From: Faecalibacterium prausnitzii
GTDB lineage: Bacteria > Bacillota > Clostridia > Oscillospirales > Ruminococcaceae
Length of the DNA: 64,000 nucleotides
Assembly (NCBI RefSeq): GCF_019967995.1
Contig: NZ_CP065377.1
Coordinates: 1,116,001 to 1,180,000, forward strand
Direction of reading: 5' to 3'
In this document: piece by piece, positions 37,373 to 39,734 of the stretch
How positions within the stretch are numbered: position 1 is the first letter of the stretch
Layout: each line of letters opens with the position of its first letter
Made by a program: the position numbers and the translations under genes
Notes under the pieces: generated by a model
Told to the model about the DNA's origin: nothing
What the model saw: the letters and a program-made list of their open reading frames with translations, nothing else
Database searches by the model: none

Positions 37373-37750
37373 GGATTCTGCCTTTCTGCAAACACGGCTG
37401 AGGGGAGTGCCAAAGCCGCCGGAACAAAAATATCACTTTATTTTATCAGAAAAATGTGAACAAATCGTGGCATCCCGACGGCTCCCGACAGGGGAAGTTC
37501 TGGAAGATAAGAGACAATTACTGTCCCTTGCTTTTGGGCGGAAAAGGTGGTATCCTTGACAAAGAAAAGCAGTTTCCATCGGCTTTTCTCTGGCGAAAAA
37601 CGCGAGGCGAACCGGGCAGAGCAAACACCAAAACGACACATTTTGACGCTTTTTAGGGGATTGCATCTCTCTGTGCTGCTCTATAAAATAGGAATGAAAA
37701 GCCATAGACCGGAAGATTATGGCAACCACAGCAGCAAGGAGGAGTCTTTT
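37373..37750. other. Divergent intergenic region, promoters only
   Basis: 378 nt of lower GC between the ABC transporter (minus) and the 100-aa gene (plus). A TATAAA at 37682-37687 with TTGCAT at 37661-37666 (15-nt spacer) may serve the plus-strand operon. Short open frames here have no ribosome sites or family marks. Confidence 0.5.
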
Positions 37751-38053
37751 ATGGAACGAACGTATGCCCCGCTGATCCGGCAGTTCTCGTCGATCAAGGG
37801 CTATCAGGCCGCGTATACGCTGGTCTACGCGCTGGATGCGTCAGAAGGCGGCTGCCACCTGACGCTGGACCGGAAGGGCGAGCGGGAACAGCAGGTCAGC
37901 GAGTTTGTTCCGCTGCATCCGGAGGCAGGCTACCGGCTGCTGCAATATCTGTGTGAAAATGCCGTGCAGCCAGAGATCTGGGGCGATGTGATCGCAGACT
38001 GGCTCCCGGTGCTGGAAGCAGAGCAGAACGGAGGTGCCGCAGGTGCCCGGTGA
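37751..38053 (+). CDS. Small cytosolic protein, possibly DUF6514-like
   Basis: 100 aa: MERTYAPLIRQFSSIKGYQ, a YTLVYALDASEGGCHLTLD beta segment and an acidic C-terminal helix (YRLLQYLCENAVQPEIWGDVIADWL). The layout recalls the small DUF6514 proteins of Clostridia, but I hold this as weak. The ATG follows AAGGAGGAGTC. The end overlaps the GTG of the Spo0A-like gene by 11 nt, so translation is probably coupled. This tight linkage is the main clue that it belongs to the same regulatory cluster. Confidence 0.7.
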   Translation: MERTYAPLIRQFSSIKGYQAAYTLVYALDASEGGCHLTLDRKGEREQQVSEFVPLHPEAGYRLLQYLCENAVQPEIWGDVIADWLPVLEAEQNGGAAGAR

Positions 38054-38795
38054 GCGGGATGCGGAGAACCTGCGCGTCGCTCTGATGAGCTACGACGACC
38101 GGGAACTCCGCATCCGGAAGTTTTATCTGGAAGAGCAGAGCACCATCATCCGATGCACCTGCTTCCAGAGCGGGGAGCCTGTCCTGCAGGCGCTGCGGCA
38201 GGAGCGGTGCTTTGATGTGCTGGTGCTGAGCAGCCAGCTGGAGGATATGGACAGCCTGACCTTCCTCGAAAAGCTCAACCGCCTGCCCAGCCACCCGCCG
38301 CTCCTGTTGCAGGGCGACGGCTGGGCCGACGACATCACCGCCGCCCACCTGCAGCCGGGCAGCCGTTTTTACGGCGTCGGGCACGACCATCTGCGGGATC
38401 TTCTGCGGGGGCTGCTGGGCGTCCCCGGCCGGAACTCGATGCAGATCGAACGGTTCTGCACCCACCTGTACGAGCTGTGGAAGCTCCCGCAGCCGGACAC
38501 CAATTGCGAATACCTCACGCTGGCGGTACAGATCGCCTGTTCAGCCGATGGAAAACTGGCGCTTTGCAAAGAAATTTTGCAGGGCGTCGCGGAACAATAT
38601 CACATCACGGTGGCCGCTGTGGACAGCGGCCTGCGCCGTCTGGTCGAAGGGCTGGAGACACGGCACCCGGTGGAATGGGAGCACTTCAAGGCGGAAAACG
38701 GCCTGACCGGGCTCAAAGTCACCACCGGCAGGCTGGTCTACTCGCTGCAGCAGACCGTGCTGCGGCGCGGCATCATCGTGCGGGAACAGCGGTAA
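38043..38795 (+). CDS. Spo0A-like regulator with ablated phosphorylation site
   Basis: 250 aa. The N-terminal domain aligns with the Spo0A receiver: DVLVLSSQLEDMDSLTFLEKL matches DVLVLDxxMPxLDGLxVLExL, with Ser63 in place of the phosphorylated Asp. The conserved receiver Lys is also lost (VGHDHLRDL). The C-terminal part (EYLTLAVQIACSADGKLALCKEILQGVAEQYHI and AVDSGLRRLVEGLE) resembles the Spo0A DNA-binding domain but has altered recognition-helix residues. It is probably a phosphorylation-independent transcription factor. Start GTG 38043, 8 nt after GGAGG. HATPase protein follows. A generic LytTR/LuxR origin is less likely. Confidence 0.75.
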   Translation: MPGERDAENLRVALMSYDDRELRIRKFYLEEQSTIIRCTCFQSGEPVLQALRQERCFDVLVLSSQLEDMDSLTFLEKLNRLPSHPPLLLQGDGWADDITAAHLQPGSRFYGVGHDHLRDLLRGLLGVPGRNSMQIERFCTHLYELWKLPQPDTNCEYLTLAVQIACSADGKLALCKEILQGVAEQYHITVAAVDSGLRRLVEGLETRHPVEWEHFKAENGLTGLKVTTGRLVYSLQQTVLRRGIIVREQR

Positions 38796-38804
38796 GGAGG
38801 AACG

Positions 38805-39608
38805 GTGGATATGTGCAGGCAGGACGAAGCGGGATTTCCGCAAAAACAGTTGGAAACAGCGTTTCTGCACTCACTGCGCCTGCTGGAACAGAACCGGGAA
38901 TATTTACAGATGCACTTACAGCCGCTGAAGGATGCCCGCGCGACCCAGGCGCTGGAGGACATGGAGCAGGAAGCAGCCCGGCTGGAACGGACGTTCCGGG
39001 AGTTGATGGAGCTTTCGGCTCCGGAGGAACCGGTGCAGAAGCGGCCGGTGGACCTGTGCCGCCTGCTGGCGCAGCTGGAAGGGCTGCGCGGCGAGATCGA
39101 CGCCCAGAGCAGCACGAAGCTCACCGTAGACTGCGGCGGGCTGGAGCAGTGCCTTGTCTGGGGCGACCGAGAAATGGCCGAACAGATCTGCTTTCACCTG
39201 CTTTCGAACGCCCTGCGTGCTGCCGCACCCGGCGGGAACATCCAGGTGTGCCTGCGGCAGACCGGGCAGGACATCCGCCTGACCATCGAGGACGATGGCT
39301 GCGGCCTGCCGGAAGGGGAGAGCTGGCTCGAAAACCGCCGCCGCTTTCTGGGCGGTGCGCAGGCGGGGCTGCTGCTCTGCCGCCGGTATTGCCGCCAGCT
39401 GGGCTGGGGGCTTGCCCTGCTGCCCCGCACACCGCAGGGCGTCCGGGCAGAGCTGACACTGCCGCTGCCCACCCGGCCGTTCCCCATCGAAACGACGGTC
39501 GAGTTCCGCTCGCAGCCGTCCCACCCGGACGAACACAGCACCACCGCGCTGCAGCATCAGCTCCGCCGCGAGCTGTATCTGCTCACCCGCAGGCACGCAG
39601 GGAATTGA
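38805..39608 (+). CDS. HATPase_c sensor-kinase-like protein
   Basis: 267 aa, cytosolic, no membrane segment. N-terminal coiled-coil-like helices (~10-75) may be a dimerisation domain; a His lies in FLHSLRLLEQN but no clear H-box is present. The GHKL ATP-binding domain has N-box FHLLSNALRAA, G1 DDGCGLPEG and G2 GGAQAGLLLCRRYCRQLGWGL. The C-terminus has a Ser/His/Pro-rich tail. Since the linked regulator lacks a phosphorylation site, this may signal by binding rather than phospho-transfer. GTG 38805 (4 nt from AAGGAGG) or ATG 38811 (10 nt) could be the start. Confidence 0.78.
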   Translation: MDMCRQDEAGFPQKQLETAFLHSLRLLEQNREYLQMHLQPLKDARATQALEDMEQEAARLERTFRELMELSAPEEPVQKRPVDLCRLLAQLEGLRGEIDAQSSTKLTVDCGGLEQCLVWGDREMAEQICFHLLSNALRAAAPGGNIQVCLRQTGQDIRLTIEDDGCGLPEGESWLENRRRFLGGAQAGLLLCRRYCRQLGWGLALLPRTPQGVRAELTLPLPTRPFPIETTVEFRSQPSHPDEHSTTALQHQLRRELYLLTRRHAGN

Positions 39609-39681
39609 CCGCAGATTCCAAAGCCGTCCTAGGGCGGCTGCTGGACAAGGCGGTAGAAGAATATCTTGCAATGTGATCACG

Positions 39682-39734
39682 AACGCGCTGCGCATCGGGC
39701 GGGATGAATTGCCCACCGATGCGCAGCGCGTTTT
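39682..39734 (+). terminator. Terminator of the Spo0A-like cluster
   Basis: 17-bp stem AACGCGCTGCGCATCGG/CCGATGCGCAGCGCGTT, then TTTT. The rest of 39609-40018 holds only this and the next promoter. Confidence 0.88.

Follow-up and report, generated by a model that had tools for sequence, protein, structure and literature searches.

What can a Spo0A-like regulator and its kinase-like partner do, when neither of them retains the residue used for phosphotransfer? The question is raised by three genes found in a window of 64,000 nucleotides (the whole stretch of DNA analysed, to which positions refer) from Faecalibacterium prausnitzii, in a genome of 2.94 Mb assembled as a single contig. A sequence-only reading of the locus had proposed a rewired, phosphorylation-independent relay, perhaps a leftover or a reuse of the sporulation switch. 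Reuse without phosphate is likely, because the phosphosites are absent, the regulator has a Spo0A-type domain, loci of other genera have the same gene order and purifying selection acts on the genes; the leftover part of the proposal was not supported. In the reading favoured here, to which a probability of about one half is assigned, the genes form a paralogous operon of the Spo0A family, whose ancestor was a His-Asp pair accompanied by a DUF6514 partner and whose control no longer depends on phosphorylation. Sequence comparisons and predicted models establish the domain architecture, the absence of His and Asp, the ATP pocket, the gene order, purifying selection, and a tandem site in most Faecalibacterium.

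Organization of the operon and encoded proteins

All three genes lie on the plus strand (Table 1), the first overlapping the second by 11 nt, and the third following after a spacing of 9 nt. The tight packing and the strong hairpin closing the array were all found as first described. The T-tail of the hairpin is short, and a terminator scanner gave no call for it. Flanking genes were named by eye. An ABC-transporter-like gene is located upstream on the minus strand, as in six of the eight loci from named records, and a CoA-enzyme-activase-like gene downstream on the plus strand; in named records the latter is downstream in three of the eight loci, and upstream, on the other strand, in two (L060, L061).

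Table 1. Features of the three-gene operon and of its upstream region (positions in the window).
Feature	Positions	Strand	Basis
Candidate operator, 0A-like, with two GAC boxes in tandem (10-bp period)	37634..37654	+	0 mismatches to YGACRCWTTTTGACRCWTTTT
-35 element TTGCAT	37661..37666	+	6 bp past the tandem site; 17-bp spacer; layout common to related operons
-10 element TAAAAT	37684..37689	+	17-bp spacer; layout of related operons
DUF6514-like small protein, 100 aa	37751..38053	+	operon gene 1 in 25/29 genus rows
Regulator of 250 aa: pseudo-receiver, then Spo0A-type DNA-binding domain	38043..38795	+	profile, alignment and fold comparisons
Ser63 codon AGC, position of the phospho-acceptor Asp	38229..38231	+	alignment
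HATPase protein, pseudo-histidine kinase, 267 aa	38805..39608	+	HATPase_c 53 bits; acceptor column without His
Thr18 codon, phospho-His position of the kinase-like protein	38856..38858	+	alignment to GLTHEFKTP of L107
Terminator-like hairpin	39681..39733	+	-43.5 kcal/mol, z -5.7

In the regulator a receiver fold is followed by a Spo0A_C DNA-binding fold, in the same order as in Spo0A (TIGR02875; PF00072 plus PF08769). The motif carrying the acceptor Asp reads DVLVLS, with Ser63 replacing the Asp, and the receiver Lys is gone as well. The protein is a pseudo-receiver, that is a receiver fold missing the acceptor Asp, joined to a Spo0A_C DNA-binding domain. On both replacements the alignment agrees with the sequence-only reading, and the attribution of the C-terminal half to a Spo0A-type DNA-binding domain is borne out by the Spo0A_C match and by the fold. 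The Pfam scores of the regulator are below cut-off, and the TIGR02875 equivalog model is not reached (22.8 bits, cut-off 200). When Ser63 was counted against Asp, the latter was found in 0 of the 114 alignable rows among the 120 homologues listed, and in 15 of the 29 Faecalibacterium rows (28 genomes), the others featuring Cys (8), Ser (3) or Gly (3).

The third protein has an ATP-binding domain, in which the N, G1 and G2 boxes are kept. Residues N135, D163, G165 and G188 are each conserved in at least 28 of the 29 genus rows. The 120 homologues listed of 337 retain N135 in 116 of 118 alignable rows, and G188 in 107 of 112. HisKA gave no match, no other Pfam domain exceeded the cut-off, and the dimerisation part has no Pfam match. 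The phospho-His column, which features Thr18 in the window, holds His in 0 of 108 letters (12 gaps) in the same homologues, and in none of the 29 genus rows. As a kinase-related protein missing the phospho-His this is a pseudo-histidine kinase, matching the initial description of N, G1 and G2 boxes with no clear phospho-His.

Phosphotransfer might persist along a non-canonical route, from His22 of the kinase-like protein to Asp18 or Asp68 of the regulator. His22, placed at +4 from the phospho-His position (one helical turn), is kept in 110 of 112 alignable rows of the listed homologues; for Asp18 the count is 108 of 110, for Asp68 it is 113 of 114, and the ATP boxes are intact. However, 18 of the 29 genus rows feature Arg in the His22 column, 10 feature His and one features Gln; where His is present it is followed by Ser or Ala, and not by the usual Glu or Asp; and rows with His22 all belong to the Asp-less clade. 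Because the genus column is mostly Arg, His22 looks like a later replacement of Arg. Moreover, all 25 rows of alignment A2 feature Asp68, and these include relatives keeping the acceptor Asp. Such a route is improbable.

The small protein scored 13.1 bits with DUF6514 (PF20124), or 12.4 bits in the genome search, below the cut-off of 23.9. It is linked to DUF6514 via basal homologues, since its counterparts in the basal operons L105, L106 and L107 pass the cut-off (three of ten scanned). The predicted model (pLDDT 89) has four strands and two helices, and no clear solved relative was found by structure comparison. No small gene was found before the regulator in four of the 29 genus rows: L007, L027, L041, L042 (contig end). 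In the genomes of the first two (G171 and G199) the tandem site lies only about 100-170 nt from the regulator, leaving no room for it. On the short contig L112, from another genus, regulator and kinase are present, with no small gene found. The genome hosting the operon encodes the small protein a second time, as a stand-alone copy (C1:1940454-1940705, minus strand; L093:5374-5739), and similar copies were found in four other Faecalibacterium genomes (L094-L097). Neither regulator nor kinase genes were found beside the stand-alone copies within the 11 kb examined, and no such regulator was found within 1.5 kb of the 37 DUF6514 loci sampled outside the family.

Distribution and loss of the phosphosites

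A profile of the regulator matched 29 of 31 Faecalibacterium genomes, all 22 high-quality ones included. The match in G216 (L052) was rejected, being by eye an unrelated LytTR-like regulator, and the regulator is thus present in 28 genomes; the start of the operon is visible at a contig end of G216 (L174). Matches from named records are all from Faecalibacterium (8/8); among them, the operon of L054 (Faecalibacterium hattorii) has phmmer scores identical, for each of the three proteins, to those of L028 from another genome of the genus. Genome G219 hosts two copies of the entire three-gene operon (L048, L053). At the family level, matches to the profile of the small protein were found in 45 of 396 genomes, seven of these being Faecalibacterium, and in 16 of 126 genera. 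A separate search of family genomes matched 18 of 197. Of these, the weak matches L015 and L024 were judged to be other regulators, and no regulator match was found in L019, L021-L023 and L026. The order small protein-regulator-kinase, for which a check had been suggested, is conserved: it is found in all 13 other-genus loci with the small gene that were retrieved, and in the genus the small gene comes first in 25 of the 29 rows.

For the tree and the residue counts, L015, L024 and L052 were left out, together with stray matches in L100 and L109 and the repeats L008, L110, L111 and L112. L012 and L109 are one locus, so that the 50 rows of the tree correspond to 49 distinct loci, and the regulators from other genera to 20 rows. 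Asp, Lys and His are all kept in four operons (L107, L105, L106, L098). The clearest His-Asp pair is L107, in which REC (72.0 bits), Spo0A_C (69.9 bits) and HisKA (31.8 bits) all exceed the cut-off, and the kinase features the motif GLTHEFKTP. HisKA gave no match in L105, and scores below cut-off in L106 and L098. Ten regulators, L050 and nine from other genera, were scanned for Spo0A_C: eight matched, three of them over the cut-off, and no match was found in L098 and L103. Other combinations also occur. Asp is kept and His missing in L010, L025, L099-L104 and L109; His is kept and Asp missing in L016/L017; both are missing in L011, L013, L014, L018 and L020. Homologues keeping the Asp in a normal two-component pair, named beforehand as a finding that would refute a rewired relay, do exist in part, in other genera and most clearly in L107. 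Because relatives from other genera keep both Asp and His, and basal Faecalibacterium keep Asp, the phosphosite loss is, by sequence comparison, a derived state.

In a tree of regulator plus kinase, from which the two trait columns had been removed beforehand, all 14 genus rows without Asp fall into a single clade (support 100/99), in which Ser, Gly and Cys rows are grouped. Parsimony requires a minimum of four changes at the Asp position and of three at the His position; the branching order among the other genera is unsure, because long branches are flagged there. As His is found in none of the genus rows, Asp is still kept in 15, and the Asp-less rows are a single clade, the kinase His was probably lost before the regulator Asp within Faecalibacterium.

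NG86 dN/dS values range from 0.09 to 0.51, all below 1, in 27 comparisons (nine species pairs for each of the three genes), and from 0.18 to 0.33 for the regulator in six Asp-less pairs. By this measure the operon genes are under purifying selection. A functionless, decaying remnant could be suspected from the lost active sites and the low Pfam scores of the regulator; the dN/dS values, the occurrence of the regulator in every high-quality genus genome and the conservation of the promoter-proximal site make this highly improbable.

A separate, canonical Spo0A with Asp and Lys is encoded in the same genome (C1:1632236), and Spo0A_C matches over 120 bits were found in 30 of the 31 genus genomes. 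These data do not support the view of the operon as a leftover of the sporulation switch; judging from the sequences, it is paralogous to that switch, and not the switch itself. Faecalibacterium is usually called non-spore-forming. The lineage had been taken as non-sporulating also in the sequence-only reading, but this is not clear from the genes, because the genome encodes SpoIVA (C1:1718536-1719234, minus strand, 362 bits).

A candidate tandem operator

The upstream regions have in common the tandem YGACRCWTTTT-GACRCWTTTT, located just 5' of a TTGCAT-17-TAAAAT promoter. Neither TTGCAT nor TAAAAT was called in the window by a consensus promoter scan. Tandem sites adjoining the -35 element suit activation of the Spo0A type. 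Allowing up to three mismatches, the site is unique in the window, and was found in none of 100 shuffles. It is present at 21 of the 28 testable genus operons, that is 20 plus the truncated operon of G216; G220, in which the operon is cut by a contig end, falls outside the testable set. G205, G210, G212 and G223 have a degenerate site and G224 a reduced one, while in G198 and G209 a TTCGACGAAA-like form takes its place. When the clade under test was withheld from the weight matrices, 19 of 25 genus loci and L013 beat 300 of 300 shuffles, and L014 beat 299 of 300, whereas the tandem site was not detected at L011, L012, L018 and L020; the result is support, not proof, because the sites used for training had been chosen by eye from these promoters. 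Upstream regions from other genera were inspected by eye and left unscored. L100 and L101, which keep the Asp, have CGACGGAAAACGACGGATTTTT before TTGCAT; L106 has only TTGTC-like repeats; no tandem site is evident in L098, L099, L102-L105 and L107.

In the whole genome the pattern is found, again with up to three mismatches, at four places, and the reversed control pattern at two; in other genomes of the genus the figures are up to seven and up to five, respectively. Two of the four genomic sites are located directly upstream of near-identical orphan Spo0A_C genes lacking a receiver (C1:950436-950726, minus strand, and C1:1610980-1611270, plus strand; L183, L184). Both genes reside in duplicated, mobile-looking segments, each preceded by a variant tandem site; the two are counted as one event. 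The recognition helix of the orphans (AVQSTVRRA) resembles that of the pseudo-regulator (AVDSGLRRL); in Spo0A it is RVERAIRHA.

The pattern D-S-x-x-R-R of the regulator is to be compared with E-R-x-x-R-H of Spo0A. Arg is found at both 217 and 218 in 29 of 29 genus rows. The equivalents of Spo0A E213-R214, in B. subtilis numbering, are D/E-S in most genus rows and D-S in the window, and DNA preference may for this reason differ from that of Spo0A. The DNA specificity of the regulator is, from its residues, likely related to that of Spo0A but shifted. In PMC3485338 the 0A core is given as TGTCGAA, with G2, C4 and G5 as contacted bases. The first box of the candidate operator includes CGACA, the complement of TGTCG, which covers all three; the second box departs from the core.

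Canonical Spo0A might then be the protein which binds the tandem site and controls the operon, the pseudo-regulator acting at other sites. The core bases of the first box and the presence of Spo0A here, and of strong Spo0A_C matches across the genus, agree with this. The second box does not, 0 of 30 spo0A loci have a tandem site within 500 bp upstream, and two of the four genomic sites precede orphan genes having a recognition helix like that of the pseudo-regulator; we regard the hypothesis as unlikely. Alternatively, the pseudo-regulator could mainly pair with canonical Spo0A on the tandem boxes and alter the output, by analogy with WhiI and BldM, a precedent described in PMC12632262. The two proteins have the same domain architecture and related DNA-binding folds, and coexist in nearly all genus genomes. 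Pairing leaves, however, the conserved kinase-like and DUF6514 neighbours unexplained, and is quite unlikely.

Possible mode of action and precedents

If the operon works independently of phosphorylation, as we favour, an ancestral His-Asp pair would have lost first the kinase His and later the regulator Asp. The ATP pocket and the DNA-binding domain would have been retained throughout, and so, in most Faecalibacterium, would the site at the operon's own promoter. The regulator may bind the candidate operator as a tandem pair and tune its own operon. Its activity would be set by direct contact with the ATP-bound pseudo-kinase, along with the DUF6514 protein where present, and by its own amount, and not by phosphate. 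More tentative is the stricter version in which phosphotransfer is wholly dropped, the ATP-loaded pseudo-kinase directly binds the Asp-less Spo0A paralogue, the DUF6514 protein is a third component, and intermediates survive in living relatives.

The likeness to Spo0A extends to the YGAC core of the candidate operator; unlike Spo0A, the regulator has a dedicated kinase-like protein encoded beside it. Both pseudo-receivers and pseudo-kinases are already known. According to PMC12632262, 2.0% of receivers have no Asp and 0.9% of HisKA domains no His. The Asp-less regulators described in PMC4395418 and PMC12632262 similarly have a receiver fold without phospho-Asp; here, in contrast, the partner kinase also lacks the His, and relatives span from the His-Asp pair to the double loss. 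By analogy, the nearest precedent for the proposed phosphate-free control would be Caulobacter DivL, a kinase fold without phospho-His which, according to PMC4211667, works through a response regulator without kinase activity. DivL has PAS domains and binds phosphorylated DivK, whereas in the operon the regulator is itself devoid of the usual phosphosite. In CmrRST of Clostridioides difficile (PMC12632262) a pseudo-receiver is co-operonic with a kinase, as here, but is added to an otherwise normal regulator-kinase pair, which is missing in the operon. The literature searched, as far as the available text of the sources goes, yielded no co-operonic double loss combined with living His-Asp relatives and a candidate operator. 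A 2025 review (PMC12632262) describes the on-off switching of bacterial pseudo-receivers as a mystery. Since both losses are found in one operon, intermediates and His-Asp pairs are found in relatives, and a candidate operator is available, pseudo-receiver switching becomes testable in a gut commensal.

Two minor observations may be added. In a F. hattorii-like genome a perfect tandem site (G204:C50:41221-41241, L161) immediately precedes the start of a lipoprotein-like gene. A 400-aa protein (P0057) joins regulator and HATPase in one chain, and may be either a real fusion or an assembly artefact.
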